Shown here piece after piece: positions 14,583 through 42,910 of a DNA stretch of 42,910 nt; positions within the stretch are counted from its first letter, which is position 1; each line of letters begins with the position of its first letter. The notes under the pieces were generated by a model. That model was not told the origin of the DNA. It saw only the letters and a list, made by a program, of their open reading frames with translations, and searched no databases. The position numbers and the translations under genes were made by a program. The DNA comes from Pseudomonadota bacterium. Its GTDB lineage: Bacteria > Pseudomonadota > Gammaproteobacteria > Burkholderiales > Thiobacillaceae. Location of the stretch: positions 1 through 42,910 of the forward strand of contig JAUYFG010000070.1 of assembly GCA_030690985.1 (NCBI GenBank), read 5' to 3'.

Positions 14583-16220
14583 ATGAAACTGAAGTTGATC
14601 ACTGTTGTGCTCGCCCTTGCGGCGACACCGGCTCTGGCCGCGATGGGCACCACCGAGATTCCGACCTTCGCCGGCCAGGCCGCCGCCAAGGCTACCGCCA
14701 CGACCAACGTGCCGCAGACCCCGGAAGTGTGGCTGGCGCGCATGACCGACTTCTCGCGCAACCTGTCCGCGTTCAAAGATCCCAAGATGTTCGTGCCCTG
14801 GGCCAACGCCGTGACCGAGCCGGGTTTCTATGTCGCCATGATGAACGGCATGATGGACCCGGGTGGCTGGCTGAACATGATGAATACCGCCGCGCATCCC
14901 GATGCCGTGCGCAACCTGGCCCAGTTTGCCGACCCCAACATCTATCTCAAGTGGGCCGCCGCGACCGGTGACCCCAACTTCTACACGGCCGTGCTCACCC
15001 CGCTTTCCGACCCGGGCAAGCTGACGCGCTGGGCCATGCTGCCGGTCGACGCGAAACTGTGGAATACCTTGTTGTCCACGCTCAACCCCAATACCTACAT
15101 CCGCTGGGGCCTGGCCGGCCTGGACCCGCGTGCCTGGAATCTGGCGGGCACGATGGCCAACCCCGCGCTCTACACCGGCATGATGGGCGCCGTGGTGAAC
15201 CCGAACTCCTACGGCCAGGGCACCAGCAACTGGCTGACCTGGGCGCCGCAACCCTCCGTGCAGGGTGCCGGCAGCTTCGCTATGTGGGATCCGGTCGCCA
15301 TGCTGGGCAATCTGTCCGGCTTCGTTCCCGGTATCAATCTGGCCGCGCTGCCGACGCTGCCGAATATCGGTATGCCCACCATGACCCTGCCGACCTTCCC
15401 GGCGGTCGCCCCGACCTTCAACCCCGCCTCGGTCTACGCACCGGCTGCGGCCCCGACACCGGCCGCCAAGGCTGCCGTTGCCGCACCTGTAGCCGTTGCC
15501 ACGCCACCCGCCGCTGCCGAAGCAGCAAAACCCGCCGAGGTTGCCAAGCCGGTTGTCGTGGCCAGGCCCGTCGTGGAAGCCGCCAAGCCGGTTGATGTGG
15601 CCAAGCCGGTCGAGCCGACCAAGTCCGTGTCGGCAGCCCCCAAGGTTGAAGTAAAAGCGGTCGCTGCGCCGGTTCCGGAAGTCAAGGCAGCCCCGGTCGC
15701 CAAGCCGGTCGATGTGGTCAAGCCCGCCGAGCCGACCAAGGCTGTGGTGGCAGCCCCCAAGGTTGAAGTAAAAGCTGCCGCCGCACCGACGCCTGTCGTA
15801 GTGGCCACGCCTGTTGCCACGCCTGCTCCGGAAACCAACAAGGTGATCCTGGCCGGTGACGCGCTGTTCATGTCCGGCAAATCCGGGATCAATAACCTGT
15901 CCAAGGACGGCAAGACTCGCCTTGATGAGATCGTTGCCAAGATCAAAGCCATGGGCGACATCGAGCAGATCAAGGTGGTCGGCCATGCCGATCCCACCGG
16001 CAATGCCAAGGCCAACCAGGCGCTGTCGGAAGCGCGCGCCAAGTCGGTCAGGTCCTATCTGGTGGCCAAGGGTGTGAAGCCCGGTGTCATCATCACCAGC
16101 GGCATGGGCGACACTCAGCCGGTGACCCAGTGCGACAAAACGCTGGCGAGCGCGGATCTGAAGGTTTGCCACGCACCCAACCGCCGCGTGGAAATCGAGA
16201 TCATCGGCAAGGCCAAATAA
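14583..16220 (+). CDS. OmpA-family envelope protein with N-terminal 13-residue tandem repeats
   Basis: This 545-aa protein starts at ATG 14583 after AAAAGGAAACACC; an upstream in-frame ATG at 14424 has no such site. Residues 1-20 form a signal peptide ending ALAA. Residues 66-210 contain twelve tandem units of 12-13 residues, consensus (D/N/E)-P-x-x-(Y/W/F)-x-x-(W/M). Residues about 285-425 are a low-complexity Ala/Pro/Lys/Val linker, including a 90-bp DNA repeat. The last 125 residues are an OmpA-C peptidoglycan-binding domain (VVGHADPTGNAKANQALSEARA and a C-terminal RRVEIEI). It probably tethers the outer envelope to peptidoglycan; the role of the repeats is unknown to me. Confidence 0.85.
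   Translation: MKLKLITVVLALAATPALAAMGTTEIPTFAGQAAAKATATTNVPQTPEVWLARMTDFSRNLSAFKDPKMFVPWANAVTEPGFYVAMMNGMMDPGGWLNMMNTAAHPDAVRNLAQFADPNIYLKWAAATGDPNFYTAVLTPLSDPGKLTRWAMLPVDAKLWNTLLSTLNPNTYIRWGLAGLDPRAWNLAGTMANPALYTGMMGAVVNPNSYGQGTSNWLTWAPQPSVQGAGSFAMWDPVAMLGNLSGFVPGINLAALPTLPNIGMPTMTLPTFPAVAPTFNPASVYAPAAAPTPAAKAAVAAPVAVATPPAAAEAAKPAEVAKPVVVARPVVEAAKPVDVAKPVEPTKSVSAAPKVEVKAVAAPVPEVKAAPVAKPVDVVKPAEPTKAVVAAPKVEVKAAAAPTPVVVATPVATPAPETNKVILAGDALFMSGKSGINNLSKDGKTRLDEIVAKIKAMGDIEQIKVVGHADPTGNAKANQALSEARAKSVRSYLVAKGVKPGVIITSGMGDTQPVTQCDKTLASADLKVCHAPNRRVEIEIIGKAK
15582..15788 (+). repeat. 90-bp direct repeat in the OmpA-family linker
   Basis: 15582-15671 and 15699-15788 are near copies. Both encode AKPVDV-x-KP-x-EPTK-x-V followed by AAPKVEVKA-x-AAP. 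The identical codons in the middle of the unit suggest recent duplication or slippage. Copy number may vary between strains. Confidence 0.75.
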
Positions 16221-20184: not shown

Positions 20185-20257
20185 GTAGGATGTGGTGACG
20201 AAGGAACCGCATCATGGTAGCGCGATGATGCGGTTCGCTGCGCTCACCACATCCTAC
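20185..20257. repeat. REP pair (GTAGGATGTGGT family)
   Basis: GTAGGATGTGGT at the left and its complement ending CACATCCTAC at the right enclose ACCGCATCATG/GATGATGCGGT. Only the right half keeps the GAGCGCAGCG core; the left has lost part of it. It lies between the c-di-GMP gene and the duplicated cbbO end. Confidence 0.85.
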
Positions 20258-20259
20258 GT

Positions 20260-20364
20260 CTCCTACCTTGTCAGGCGCCGGTAAATGTCGGAAACCTTGA
20301 ACGGCAGTTGCCGCACGTCGTCGAGGATGATGTAGCGAGCGGCGCCGTACATGTGCGGCAGGTA
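20260..20364 (-). pseudogene. Duplicated 3' end of cbbO
   Basis: This 105-bp segment repeats 20466-20570, the last 34 codons and stop of cbbO plus a few bases, with about nine substitutions. It carries no start codon of its own. Between the two copies lies a REP pair (20370-20454). The arrangement looks like insertion of the REP into the end of cbbO with duplication of the target, leaving the upstream copy functional. Confidence 0.9.
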
Positions 20365-20369
20365 GTGTC

Positions 20370-20454
20370 GTAGGATGGGTTGAGCGATAGCGAAACCCAT
20401 TGATCCTTCCGCACCACTTCATGATGGGTTTCGCTATCGCTCAACCCATCCTAC
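20370..20454. repeat. REP pair (GTAGGATGGGTT family) between cbbO 3'-end copies
   Basis: Arms of GTAGGATGGGTTGAGCGATAG followed by CGAAACCCAT form a large palindrome with its inverted partner around a 20-nt centre. Each half alone is a classic REP: a GTAG head followed by an imperfect hairpin. It is bounded by the 105-bp direct duplication. Confidence 0.88.
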
Positions 20455-20468
20455 GCGGCCTACGGCTC

Positions 20469-22577
20469 CTACCTAGTCAGCCGTCGGTAGATATCGGAAA
20501 CCTTGAACGGCAGTTGCCGCACGTCGTCGAGGATGATGTAACGGGCGGCGCCGTACATGTGTGGCAGGTAATCGCGTGCTTCGCGGTCGATGGTGATGCA
20601 GAACGGGTGCACCCCGGCGCGGCGCGACTCCAGCAGGGCCATGCGGGTGTCTTCGATGCCGTACTGGCCGCGATAGCCGTCGAAGTAGTCATCCGGACGG
20701 CCATCGGAGAGGGTAATCAGCACCTTGGTCGCGGCATCGACTTCGTTCAGCAGTTTGCTCAGATGGCGAATGGCGAAGCCCATGCGCGTGTATTCCTGGG
20801 CGCGGATGCCGGAAATACGCGCTTTCACTTCGTCGCCATAGGGTTCGGCGAAGGTCTTGATGCGAAACAACTCGCAGCGTTTCCGGGTCGTGCCGGAAAA
20901 GCCGTAGATGGCATAGCGGTCGCCCAGGCGTTCCAGCGCTTCGCACAACAACACCAGGGCTTCGCGCTCGGCCTCGTTGATCCAGCCCCGGGTGGAACCG
21001 CTCATGTCGACCATGAAGGCGACCGCGATGTTGCGTTCCGCGCGATGCTGGCGCACGAACAGGCGGTCGCTCATCTCACGACCGTCGCGGGCATCGGCCA
21101 GGGCTTCGACCAGGGCGTCGATGTCCACCTCGTCGCCGTCGGTCTGGCGTTTCAGCGTGCGGTTTTCATCGCGCATGGCTTCGAAGCTCTTGCGCAGTTG
21201 TTTCACCAGACCGGCATGTTTTGCCAGGGTCTCCCGGTAAAAACCGTCATACGCCGGGGGGACATCCTTCTCCCGCACCACGCACCAATTCTTGCGGTAG
21301 TGCTCGCGGCCCATGTCCCACTCGGGATAGAACAGCGCGCCTTCCTCGTGATAAGTGCCCTGCCAGACCGAATCCGGGTCGGCGCTCTGCTCGTAGAGCA
21401 GGCTGGGGTCGTATTCACCCGCGCCGGCCGGCACCAGATATTCCGGGGGGATTTCGCCGAAATCCAGGTAGATCGAGGACAGCAGCGCCTTCACATCGTC
21501 GGGCGGGGCGATGGGCGCGCCGTCGAGGGTGATTTCCAGGTCCAGGCGGCCGTCTTCGTCGTTGATTTCGGCGGCGAATTCAGGCGATTCATTCCCCGGA
21601 TTTCGCTGCGCTGCATCCGGGCTACGCTTGGCGTGCTCTTCCAACAGGTCGGCCAGTTTCACGCGCAGGCGGGCCTTCTCCTTTTCCCGGCGCGCGGCGA
21701 AGGCGGCGGCCACGGCTGCGGGCCTCAGCTCGCCCTGGAAGCACCAGGGGGTGAAATCGGGCAGATGCAGCGCATCGCCCAGGAGGATGAGGCTGTCTTC
21801 CAGGCCGGCTTCGGGCTGCGCCAGACGTTGCGCGATCGCTTCCCAGCCGGCCGGCAGCGCCTCGCCCAACTGGCTTTTCAGCCGTTCCATATCGCGATAA
21901 AGCCCCGGCAACTCGCGCGCGATGCAGGCCGACAGGCGCAGGGTTTCCAATCCGTGCAGTTGTTTCAGCGCGCGTTGCGGATCGGGAAAATCTTCGCAGG
22001 CGACGGCAAGGTCGGCGCGGAAGGTGCCGAAGCGGGTCTGCCCCCAGAGCAGGGCCACCGCCGCCTTGGCCAGCTTGAAGTTGTCCGCCACCACGGGAAA
22101 GCGGGCAATCACGCCGGGCAGCAGAATCTTCTCGCTATCGGTATACAAGCTCTCGCCCAGCTCCACCCGCAGGCGCCGCCCGGACAGGCCGCGCACGAAG
22201 TTGCCGAGCACCCCGGCCACCTCGTCGAACAGCACCCCGGCAGTCATTTCCAGTTGCCGTTCGGCGTAGTGGTCGGCCTCCTCCAGCACTTGCAGCGCCT
22301 GGCGCAAGCCCTCGCGGTCGTAGGTATCGCAAGCGCCCACCGCCCAGGCCTCCATCAAGCGCCGATCCATGCGGCCAATCAGGGAAGGGGCGCGCCGGGT
22401 GAACTGCCAGGCGACTTCCAGATTGGTACTGGCGATGCGCTTCACCCAATCAAGCAGAAAACGCTGGTCGGATTCGGAAAGCGCAGCCAACAAGACAGCC
22501 GCCGGCCCCACCTTGCGAAACGAGAAATCCGCTTCCAGCAGGTCTTCCAACAGGAGGGTGAGGGCTGCGGCGTTCAC
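20469..22577 (-). CDS. cbbO: CbbO-type rubisco activase subunit (VWA domain, NorD family)
   Basis: This 702-aa protein pairs with a CbbQ AAA+ ATPase to remodel inhibited rubisco; NorD, its relative, serves nitric oxide reductase. The C-terminal von Willebrand A domain has an intact metal site DMSGS (Asp524, Ser526, Ser528) and a later TLSDGRPDD. The start is GTG 22577 with GGGAAGG upstream; a REP lies just before it. A REP is also translated in frame near residues 320-330 (SPDAAQRNPG). The CbbO rather than NorD call rests on the CbbQ-like partner and on length. Rubisco genes are outside the window. Confidence 0.85.
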   Translation of the reverse strand: MNAAALTLLLEDLLEADFSFRKVGPAAVLLAALSESDQRFLLDWVKRIASTNLEVAWQFTRRAPSLIGRMDRRLMEAWAVGACDTYDREGLRQALQVLEEADHYAERQLEMTAGVLFDEVAGVLGNFVRGLSGRRLRVELGESLYTDSEKILLPGVIARFPVVADNFKLAKAAVALLWGQTRFGTFRADLAVACEDFPDPQRALKQLHGLETLRLSACIARELPGLYRDMERLKSQLGEALPAGWEAIAQRLAQPEAGLEDSLILLGDALHLPDFTPWCFQGELRPAAVAAAFAARREKEKARLRVKLADLLEEHAKRSPDAAQRNPGNESPEFAAEINDEDGRLDLEITLDGAPIAPPDDVKALLSSIYLDFGEIPPEYLVPAGAGEYDPSLLYEQSADPDSVWQGTYHEEGALFYPEWDMGREHYRKNWCVVREKDVPPAYDGFYRETLAKHAGLVKQLRKSFEAMRDENRTLKRQTDGDEVDIDALVEALADARDGREMSDRLFVRQHRAERNIAVAFMVDMSGSTRGWINEAEREALVLLCEALERLGDRYAIYGFSGTTRKRCELFRIKTFAEPYGDEVKARISGIRAQEYTRMGFAIRHLSKLLNEVDAATKVLITLSDGRPDDYFDGYRGQYGIEDTRMALLESRRAGVHPFCITIDREARDYLPHMYGAARYIILDDVRQLPFKVSDIYRRLTR
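21595..21625 (-). repeat. Single REP inside cbbO coding sequence
   Basis: On the minus strand it reads GTAGCCCGGATGCAGCGCAG followed by CGAAATCCGGG: a GTAG head, a CCCGGAT/ATCCGGG stem and the AGCGCAGCG core. It is translated in frame as SPDAAQRNPG. The same family recurs outside genes at 42674-42704. It sits between the helical N-terminal half and the acidic linker, where an insertion is likely tolerated. Confidence 0.9.
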
Positions 22578-35885: not shown

Positions 35886-35925
35886 GTAGCTTGGGTCAGG
35901 CGCGTTGCGTCGTAACCCAAGCTAC
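35886..35925. repeat. GTAGCTTGGGT...ACCCAAGCTAC palindrome
   Basis: An 11-bp perfect stem with GTAG head and CTAC end encloses CAGGCGCGTTGCGTCGTA. It is a REP-like unit of another stem family, three bases before the tail module at 35928. Confidence 0.8.
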
Positions 35926-35927
35926 GC

Positions 35928-35968
35928 CACTACCCGTAGTGGGTGTCCGCGACAACCGGATAAGCACG
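35928..35968 (+). repeat. Tail module CACTACCCGTAGTGGG...GACAACCGGATAAGCACG
   Basis: A small palindrome CACTACCCGTAGTG is followed after 9 nt by GACAACCGGATAAGCACG. The same module follows REP pairs at 40512-40555 and 42868-42910, and an inverted copy starts at 42727. It seems to be a repeat family associated with REPs. Confidence 0.8.
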
Positions 35969-39192: not shown

Positions 39193-40338
39193 CTATCCCA
39201 AAGGGAATAGTAGCCGGAAGGTGGTGCCGGATGAGCCGGTTTTGAAAGAAACGATACCGTTCAGGTCTTCCGTAAGCGTTCTTACTATGTTCAACCCAAG
39301 ACCCGAGTGGCCATCCCCCTTCCGGGTTTTCACGGGATCGAACAAGTGCGCGGCCAATTCCGGATGGATGCCGGGGCCGGAGTCGCTTATTTGCAGTTCG
39401 ATGAATCGCTCGTGTTTGTGGTTGGTGATCTGAGTGATTTCAAAACGTACTTCACCGTCGTCGGGGCTGGCTTCCAGCGCGTTGAACAGCAGGTTGAGCA
39501 GGATTTGCTTGAGTTTGTCGCGATTGCAGATGAGCCGTGGCAGTTTCGCGCTCGGTATGTTGATTACCTGGATGCCACGCGGTTGCCAGGTGGGCGCGGT
39601 GACTTTGAGCAGATCGTCCAGCAGCAGGCGGATATCGGTTTCTTCCGAGAGTTCGGCCAGGCTGTCATCGCCGTGGGCGAGGGCGCGCACGATGCGCACG
39701 ATGCGGTCGAGTTCCTCCTGGATGATGCGCAGCTCGTCCGCGATGGGGGGCGCGTCGCCCAGCTTGGTTTTGAGGATGGCCAGATAGTTTTTGATGGTGC
39801 CCAGGGGATTGTTGATTTCATGAGCGGCACGGCGGACACGGCCTCCCAGGTAGGGGTCGTAGTCTTCCGGCTTCGGCTTCCCGGGCTGGCTGCCGCGCCA
39901 CGGCGCTTCGCCCGGATGGATATAGCGCTCCGCGTGCGCGGCGATGTCGGCCAGGGCCGCGCGGTCGCCGCAAACCAGCAGGACACCGCGCGCGGTCCCT
40001 TCGCCCACGGGGATGGCGGCCACACCGTCCGCGCCGGCCTGGCGCGCCAGTTGGACGTCCAGCAGGGAAGCATCGCCGTCTTTGTCGGTGTAAACCACCA
40101 CGGGTATGCGCGTGAACAGCGCGCGCACGGCGGCGGTATTGCTGCCTTCCACGCGGATCGAGAGGGTGGCGGCCGGCCGCTCTCCCAGGGCTTGCGGCTC
40201 AAGCATGCTGGTGCGTTTGTCCAGGCGCAGATAGATCGGGTCGCGTAACCCTTTTTGCCCCGCCAGCAGACGGGCCGCCGCCAGCACAGGTTCACTGGTT
40301 CGTTCGTGCATACCGGGTTCCATTGTTTTCTGCGGCAT
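39193..40338 (-). CDS. Sensor histidine kinase partner of the REC-GGDEF-EAL regulator
   Basis: About 381 aa from ATG 40338 (MPQKTMEPG); ATG 40311 (MHERTSEP) is an alternative, and neither has a good ribosome binding site. The H-box is RRAAHEINNPLGTIKNYL (His173). N, G1 and G2 boxes are NLLFNALEAS, ISDSGPGIHPE and GHSGLGLNIVRTL. The first 130 residues look like part of a GAF-type sensor, with no transmembrane helix. The start region is duplicated upstream next to a REP, and the N-terminus may be shortened. It probably phosphorylates the response regulator gene that follows. Confidence 0.88.
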   Translation of the reverse strand: MPQKTMEPGMHERTSEPVLAAARLLAGQKGLRDPIYLRLDKRTSMLEPQALGERPAATLSIRVEGSNTAAVRALFTRIPVVVYTDKDGDASLLDVQLARQAGADGVAAIPVGEGTARGVLLVCGDRAALADIAAHAERYIHPGEAPWRGSQPGKPKPEDYDPYLGGRVRRAAHEINNPLGTIKNYLAILKTKLGDAPPIADELRIIQEELDRIVRIVRALAHGDDSLAELSEETDIRLLLDDLLKVTAPTWQPRGIQVINIPSAKLPRLICNRDKLKQILLNLLFNALEASPDDGEVRFEITQITNHKHERFIELQISDSGPGIHPELAAHLFDPVKTRKGDGHSGLGLNIVRTLTEDLNGIVSFKTGSSGTTFRLLFPLG

Positions 40339-40426
40339 TGCCCTAAGCGATTCATCATCTGATGGTCCGGCAAGGATAACGTATCGCTGTGGGTGGGGCG
40401 CGTTACCTGTGTCCCACGCGCCGGAG
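40297..40426. repeat. 130-bp direct repeat, copy 1 (start of kinase gene)
   Basis: It is identical to 40554-40683 at 124 of 130 positions; all six differences are transitions. This copy contains the kinase start codon and its upstream region. Between the copies lie a REP pair and a tail module. Confidence 0.93.
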
Positions 40427-40430
40427 GGCC

Positions 40431-40511
40431 GTAGGATGGGGTGCGCGCAGCGAACCGCATCAACCACGGTTGCGCTAGCTGTGGCGGTTCGCGGCGCTCA
40501 CCACATCCTAC
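40431..40511. repeat. REP pair (GTAGGATGGGGTGCGCGCAGCG family) between the 130-bp repeats
   Basis: GTAGGATG...GCGCAGCGAACCGCATCAA faces ...GGCGGTTCGCGGCGCTCACCACATCCTAC. It belongs to the same family as 14200-14376 and 20185-20257. It starts four bases after copy 1 of the direct repeat. Confidence 0.87.
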
Positions 40512-40555
40512 TGGGCTACCGGTAGTCGCTGTCTGTGACAACCGGATCAGCACGG
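40512..40555 (+). repeat. Tail module CTACCGGTAG...GACAACCGGATCAGCACGG
   Basis: It is adjacent to the REP pair and matches 35928-35968 and 42868-42910. It ends where copy 2 of the 130-bp repeat begins, so REP plus tail appear to be the inserted unit. Confidence 0.8.
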
Positions 40556-40683
40556 TTCGTTCGTGCATACCGGGCCCCATTGTTTTCTGCGGCATTGCCC
40601 TAAGCGATTCATTATCTGATGGTCCGGCAAGGATGACGTATCGCCGTGGGTGGGGCGCGTTACCTGTGTCCCATGCGCCGGAG
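40554..40683. repeat. 130-bp direct repeat, copy 2
   Basis: This second copy repeats the kinase start region, including an ATG context reading MPQKTMGPGMHERT on the minus strand. The frame then runs into the tail module and REP, so it cannot give a full kinase. It may still carry the original promoter. Confidence 0.93.
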
Positions 40684-40744: not shown

Positions 40745-41254
40745 TCAGGGAGCGGTATCCCGCAGCAAGCGGAACAACTGGCGGCTGGATTTGGGCGGCT
40801 TGCTTTCGGCGGCTTCCTTGCGGGCGTTGCGTATCAGTTGTCGCATTTGCTGGGCGTCGGCGTCGGGATACCGGGCCAGCCATTCGGTGAGGGCCGCGTC
40901 GTCTTGCAGCAGGCGTTCGCGCCACTGTTCCAGGGCGTGGAATTCGGTTTTGGCGGCGGTCGATTCGCCTTTGATGAGCGCCAGTTGTTCGGCGATGGGG
41001 TCGGACTCCACATCGCGCATCAGCTTGCCGATGAGCTGCATCTGGCGGCGGATGGCGCCGTTCGCCGTGAGGCGCTGCGCTTCCAGCAATTCCGTGAGCA
41101 ACCGGTCCGGCAAATCCATTTTTTCCAGGCGCTCGCGCGACAACTTCACGAGTTCCACGCCGAGATCCTGCAGGGCGTTCATTTCGTTCTTGCGTCGGGT
41201 CTTGCTGATGGGGGAATCGCCGGATTCGTCGTGGTCTTCGTCGTGGTGGTGCAT
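40745..41254 (-). CDS. darP: Ribosome maturation protein DarP (YjgA, DUF615)
   Basis: This 169-aa protein acts in late 50S subunit assembly. The family pattern is seen in NEMNALQDLGVELVKLSRERLEKM, LTANGAIRRQMQLIGKLMRDVE and the basic tail SSRQLFRLLRD. The N-terminus is His/Asp-rich (MHHHDEDHDESGDSP). It is divergent from pmbA with a 50-bp gap, an arrangement also found in E. coli and many proteobacteria. Confidence 0.93.
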   Translation of the reverse strand: MHHHDEDHDESGDSPISKTRRKNEMNALQDLGVELVKLSRERLEKMDLPDRLLTELLEAQRLTANGAIRRQMQLIGKLMRDVESDPIAEQLALIKGESTAAKTEFHALEQWRERLLQDDAALTEWLARYPDADAQQMRQLIRNARKEAAESKPPKSSRQLFRLLRDTAP

Positions 41255-42726: not shown

Positions 42727-42910
42727 CCGTGCTTATCCGGTTAGCTCCCAATGACACTAGATGTAGTGGCCCGTGATTTCGCGGCATGGCGCCGTAGGTT
42801 GGGCAAAGCGAAGCGTGCCCAACATCGTGGCGGTTCGTTGGGCACGCGCAGCGACGCCCAACCTACGTCACTACCGGTAGTGGGCTTGGGAGACAACCGG
42901 ATAAGCACGG
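42727..42910. repeat. Composite MITE-like element: inverted tail modules around a REP pair
   Basis: CCGTGCTTATCCGGTT (42727-42742) and its perfect complement AACCGGATAAGCACGG (42895-42910) bound the element. Similarity continues inward (CTCCCAA, CACTA...GTAGTG). The centre is a REP pair of the GTAGGTTGGGC family (42793-42866). The right end coincides with the window edge, so the element may extend further. Confidence 0.85.

Follow-up and report, generated by a model that had tools for sequence, protein, structure and literature searches.

Half elements with one REP end and one IS1595-type end can lie between long, variable direct repeats of their target DNA

Half elements, made of an inverted pair of REP sequences at one end and a ‘tail’ resembling an IS1595 terminus at the other, have two joints to their target, and the target DNA between the two joint sites is either duplicated (10-129 bp) or, at one locus (L020), missing (1,175 bp). 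The reading that we favour, with about even confidence, is that these are hybrid mini-transposons whose ends would be joined by a DDE transposase and a RAYT-type HUH enzyme at independent sites on opposite target strands, which would leave a long duplication or a deletion.

One case of the arrangement is found in the window, the whole stretch of 42,910 nucleotides that was analysed, where a half element lies at the start of a histidine kinase gene. Its features, with two other loci of the window that are used below, are:

39193-40311, minus strand: histidine kinase (HisKA 2.3e-8, HATPase_c 2.7e-20)
40298-40426, unstranded: X1, the kinase-side copy of the duplication, which retains the kinase start codon with the 115 bp before it
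40427-40554, plus strand: half element (REP pair and IS1595-type end), with REP-side joint GAG|GGCC|GTAGG and other end AGCACG
40431-40511, unstranded: REP pair (REPIN), palindrome GTAGGATGGG...CACATCCTAC, arms 40431-40458 and 40484-40511
40512-40554, plus strand: tail, an IS1595-family terminal region (one end), final bases AACCGGATCAGCACG
40555-40562, plus strand: GTTCGTTC, the 8-bp target at the IS end, in the top 0.2% of background
40555-40683, unstranded: X2, the darP-side copy of the duplication, which contains a cut-off copy of the kinase start
40745-41254, minus strand: darP (yjgA), upstream neighbour of the kinase, right of the insert
42728-42909, unstranded: two-ended element (end-REPIN-end) of the same family, 182 bp, left 8-mer GAATGAAC
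20253-20577, unstranded: second REP-in-duplication, a tail-less REPIN with 112-119-bp repeats and joint TAG|TGTC|GTAGG

An earlier, sequence-only reading had described this locus as a 130-bp duplication differing by transitions alone, with a REP pair and a tail module between the copies, at the start of a histidine kinase gene, and each part of that description holds, including the kinase domains. The stretches 40297-40426 and 40554-40683 share 124 of 130 positions, and the six mismatches are transitions throughout; after trimming at the element ends they become direct repeats of 129 bp (40298-40426 and 40555-40683, 123 of 129 identical) on either side of a 128-bp insert (40427-40554). The insert consists of the REP pair, whose GTAGG arms are two inverted 28-nt stretches (89% complementary), followed by the 43-nt tail ending in AACCGGATCAGCACG, and positions 40427-40553 have a strong single-stranded DNA fold (z = -6.6). 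With two inverted REPs and GTAG at the foot, it is a REPIN in the usual sense. It is also a unit with one IS end and one REP end, not one with IS inverted repeats at both ends, and its target duplication is 129 bp rather than the 8 bp of the IS1595 type. The duplicated stretch comprises the first kinase codons and the 115 bp upstream of the kinase, and the IS-end target within X1 (40298-40305) covers kinase codons 3-5. A candidate for a further IS end within X1 (12 of 15 matching), first filed as the partner of the tail, was judged to be chance because it lies in the coding MHER start and the relative L127 is similar there without an insert.

The tail recurs throughout the 3.96-Mb genome that holds the window (G000). 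Allowing up to two mismatches, its motif is found at 106 places (57 + 49), against none for a reversed control, so its repetition is not due to chance; with one mismatch, 15 of the family's 117 genomes have it, and it is commonest in G000, G025, G026 and G103. Numerous copies are paired in inverted orientation about 182 bp apart. Target duplications of 8 bp flank 25 such two-ended elements in several genomes (20 exact, five with one mismatch; 29 rows, four of which are the same element seen from its other side), and the 8-bp repeat is absent at 16 further rows of two-ended copies. The window, and with it the contig, stops one base past the two-ended element at 42728-42909, so that a right-hand target copy would lie outside. 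Several other G000 contigs begin or finish in copies of the two-ended type.

Target duplications in the IS1595 family are usually 8 bp. Two 1,111-bp elements (L182 and L183, in G024 and G036) have the same ends as the tail and encode a 351-aa transposase; these transposases match PF12762 (9e-37 and 2e-36) and PF12760, and the one scanned against NCBIfam matches the IS1595 family (1.9e-59). One of the elements is flanked by the 8-bp duplication AAAGCAGG; L183, which has a damaged end, has none. Since these IS1595 elements and the 8-bp-duplicating two-ended copies share their ends with the tail, the tail is, judged by sequence, an IS1595-type terminus. The ‘tail module’ of the earlier reading is thus a real unit that can be further identified as the end of an insertion sequence. 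In G000 the IS1595 transposase is represented by a single partial PF12762 match (47 of 153 profile positions, in a short ORF).

Many tails stand alone. The catalogue, which for G000 drew on matches listed among its 106 tail places, was reduced from 205 tail matches to 177 and then to 127 with sufficient flank; 71 of these were filed as having an inverted partner and 56 as partnerless. Outside it lie, for example, tails at contig starts (C3:123, C31:79, C76:123, C81:123, C166:122 and C288:135) and the window tail at 35954. Among the matches listed, 14 half elements have direct repeats, 11 in G000 and three in its congener G025, with lengths of 129, 63, 58, 55, 53, 45, 39, 37, 35, 34, 33, 20, 14 and 10 bp, compared with 8 bp for the two-ended copies. 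All begin at the first base past the tail, a start that is given by construction because repeats were sought from the tail end onwards. Their other limit is not so given, and it falls 0-3 bases from the REP joint in 13 of the 14, the repeat of L149 stopping 7 nt before its CAG.

The set comprises 11 of the 13 single-tail rows that scored at least 10, L046 and L058 being excluded as nested or tandem REP arrays, together with L001 (the window, earlier filed with a partner under a loose rule), L041 (filed as incomplete) and, as a manual addition, L027 (score 6). In a null of 1,000 cross-pairings, 99% of repeat scores were 8 or less, and the top five, of 46-79, were taken for putative overlapping or paralogous loci. 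The weakest repeats are those of L027 (nine of 10 bases, score 6, inside the 95% null range) and L149 (13 of 14, score 10). The earlier claim that a REP within a duplication is no coincidence and reflects an insertion process is therefore borne out, the window being one case of a wider pattern. The mobilisation that was supposed to duplicate 100-130 bp does duplicate, but the range was drawn too narrowly, and a process that only duplicates is too simple, since target DNA can also go.

The joint at the IS end follows the target choice of the two-ended copies. A weight matrix was made from the 8-mers of the two-ended elements and used to score the first 8 bases past the tail. Each of the 14 joints scores within the top 6% of the 46,161 background 8-mers (p = 2.7e-10 in a Mann-Whitney comparison with 5,000 sampled background 8-mers), and the 21 other half elements, which here include L046 and L058, give p = 2.4e-12, with three of the 21 (L042, L046 and L148) looking like background. 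The window 8-mer, GTTCGTTC, is the entire 8-bp target duplication of the two-ended copy L011. The shared preference argues for the same kind of transposase in half and two-ended elements, and such an enzyme most likely made the IS-side joint.

The joint at the REP end follows a different rule. Among 41 half elements from four related genomes (G000, G025 and one each in G026 and G031), AG stands exactly 4 bases before GTAG, mostly as CAG, in 35 (34 without one reassigned hairpin) and is lacking there in six; at other offsets AG is found in 0-5 of the 41. Read on the opposite strand, the joint is CCTAC-NNNN-C|T. NAG is also found at the X2 end in 12 of the 14 duplicated cases and is thus part of the target; the exceptions are L053, with TAG instead of CAG, and L149, with NAG outside the matched stretch. 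In the shorter type, AG is at offset 4 in 17 of 19, while the two-ended copies mostly read TGG there. As these would-be donors mostly read TGG, microhomology with a two-ended donor is not the explanation, and template switching at microhomologies is disfavoured by the same joints. The two-ended copies of the shorter type have C|C instead of C|T where the cut would fall; to judge by this, the donor must have been another half element, unless the C|T rule is looser.

According to the accessible text of PMC8266576, RAYT cleaves single-stranded REP DNA at C|T, on either the 5' or the 3' side of the REP, and the C|T joint is consistent with the predicted cutting and joining of the REP by such an enzyme. 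Four Y1_Tnp matches occur in G000, and the one scanned against NCBIfam is a RAYT (NF047646, 7.8e-26). The RAYT gene at L188 (G000:C78, 1-722) directly adjoins a REP-plus-IS-tail copy. Elsewhere, at L132 (G013:C29, 132-1649), what looks by eye like a Y1-type transposase is encoded roughly 0.75 kb away from an IS1595-type end.

The exactness of the REP-side joint bears on an explanation that dispenses with RAYT, namely one-ended IS1595 transposition, after which the host would extend or resect the freed target 3' end and join it where the REP hairpin stalls repair. The target preference that the IS end shares with two-ended copies would be expected from such events, as would the presence of both duplications and a deletion among half elements, and in laboratory lines IS copies have been reported at the centre of large duplications and deletions without target duplication (PMC11708052, in its accessible part). 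However, host end joining predicts scatter, and a joint with AG at offset 4 in 35 of 41 cases is too exact for it. We regard this course of events as possible but unlikely.

Long repeats are also seen around REPs that have no tail. The second REP-in-duplication locus named by the sequence-only reading is real: 20253-20371 and 20459-20577 are 90% identical. By eye, the copied stretch at 20253-20577 resembles the end of a VWA/NorD-like gene. Nine tail-less rows scored at least 10, two of them being both strands of one locus; L058, L008, L139 and L086 were dropped, and the four loci kept have repeats of 113 bp (window, 20370), 114 bp (L066), 19 bp (L110) and 13 bp (L118). NAG precedes the 4-nt spacer at all four, X2 at 20370 having TAA there, while L086, with a 17-bp repeat, has no NAG. 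Because tail-less REPs also have repeats, an IS end is unnecessary for a long duplication, and it is the REP end, not the IS end, that long duplications accompany.

A RAYT acting alone, inserting REPINs with long duplications and carrying the IS end as a passenger, would account for the 13-114-bp repeats and the NAG joints of tail-less REPs. A passenger end, however, would choose no target, and the tail joint lies at IS1595-type 8-mers. This makes RAYT alone improbable to us.

Other repeats were noted in passing. At 35887-35968 another REP type (GTAGCTTGGG) is fused to the same tail, and its right flank resembles, by eye, the one at L146 (G025), so that the insertion may be an older one that the two genomes share. 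Two 117-bp units, 79% alike, lie in tandem at 15581-15814. A third REP type (GTAGGGCGGATGAGC) directly follows the tail at L046 (G000:C173) and L086 (G000:C68), forming a head-to-tail array at L046.

Relatives were compared at seven loci (the window, L020, L074, L041, L070, L079 and L144), and the comparison was clean at two, the window and L020. In the nearest relative compared at the window (L127, kinase 88% identical) there is a single copy of X and no insert, and the darP flank is continuous with X save for 36 unaligned window bp between darP and X2; the comparison of orthologous loci proposed by the earlier reading thus gave an empty site, and a duplication lacking the REP was not seen there. 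Two other relatives, L128 and L129, have different sequence upstream and are less informative. At the six positions where X1 and X2 differ, L127 matches X1 five times and X2 once; this would be expected if constraint acts on X1, but six positions are too few for a test. At L074 the support is partial: all five relatives have one copy of the first part of X at this locus, but the right flank is not collinear.

The half element at L020 has no repeat and replaces 1,175 bp that four of five relatives keep (L203, L204, L205 and L207). The stretch lies between ...GGGCAG and GTTC(A/C)TCC in these relatives (the script's 1,176 includes the G of CAG), and the fifth relative, L206, differs at the deleted stretch. 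On this comparison, we read L020 as a two-joint event of the same kind that ended in a deletion. Deletions such as this would have a simple account in two steps, a two-ended insertion with an 8-bp duplication and a later RAYT rearrangement against nearby NAG sites, and the two-ended copies do have the same REP and tails. But the duplication cases that were read out have no two-ended element beside X in their outer flanks, and the making of X1 would then require a still-empty sister chromosome; the chance of a two-step origin seems to us small.

Hairpins can stall polymerases, which might favour slippage into a tandem duplication and a later insertion of the REP at the junction, but this is scarcely credible when 13 of the 14 repeats abut the tail and end 0-3 bases from the REP joint, and when L127 has neither duplication nor insert. 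Retrotransposition, which long and variable duplications might suggest, was set aside, the tail being an IS1595 end with IS1595-type target choice; the four reverse transcriptase matches in G000 have no observed link to half elements. IS91-type rolling-circle transposition, considered for the GTTC/GAAC-like targets, was likewise set aside, given the 8-bp duplications of the two-ended copies.

A usual transposon has its two 3' ends joined to opposite target strands at a fixed spacing. In the hybrid mini-transposon proposed here, a DDE transposase would join the top-strand 3' end of the element (the IS tail) to one target strand, and RAYT, using a separate C|T site on the opposite strand, would join the bottom-strand 3' end (the REP side) there. 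The stagger would be variable because the two joints are independent. With the 8-mer ahead of the C|T site, filling in the overlap would give a long duplication; with the order reversed, the intervening stretch would be lost as a deletion. In the window, the IS end would have struck the kinase start and the duplication would have restored that start. The junction pattern is observed; from it we infer the identities of both enzymes and the single-strand step.

The spread of REP elements is described as poorly understood in the accessible text of PMC8266576. The 41 joints from four related genomes provide a readable rule, with C|T by the REP, an IS1595-type 8-mer opposite and a variable stretch between, and this makes REP mobility testable. 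If the two-enzyme mode is true, natural insertion junctions become available for REP elements, and long duplications may let the element land in the end of a gene and yet return that end, as at the kinase start. That two unrelated enzymes, a DDE transposase and an HUH tyrosine nuclease, would serve one element at two independently chosen opposite-strand sites, with variable duplications or deletions as the result, is a claim to which we give slightly less than an even chance.

Hybrids of REP and IS1595 were not found in titles or abstract starts among the matches listed from the REP/RAYT, IS1595 and duplication literature, which included few subscription papers. The nearest known systems each share part of the arrangement. 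With REPIN/RAYT (TnpA_REP) the half elements share an imperfect palindrome with GTAG at its foot, REPs in inverted pairs, a high copy number, a RAYT gene in the genome and the C|T joint; a Coxiella REP reported by Nunvar et al. reads GTAGGTTGGGC...GCCCAAC (PMC2817692, accessible part). They differ in that their other end is a DDE-type IS end and in their target duplications of 10-129 bp. Members of IS200/IS605 are described in the same accessible part as making no larger target duplications (PMC2817692), so that the repeats of the half elements also set them apart from IS200/IS605-type single-strand insertion. An IS1595-family MITE would share the termini of the 1,111-bp IS1595 elements, the lack of an internal gene and, in two-ended copies, the 8-bp duplication, whereas half elements have a single IS end and no 8-bp duplication. 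One-ended transposition of IS801, of the IS91 family, also gives insertions with only one complete end; there the other end shows homology to the element's own left end, and no long target duplication is described in the accessible text (PMC3189936), whereas in a half element the REP and a target motif fix where the other joint falls. Like half elements, the IS copies of Ngan et al. lie between duplicated DNA copies or replace deleted DNA, in large-scale events for which insertion into existing breaks is proposed in the accessible part of that paper (PMC11708052); half elements, in contrast, have repeats of 10-129 bp, are recurrent and show target motifs at both joints.
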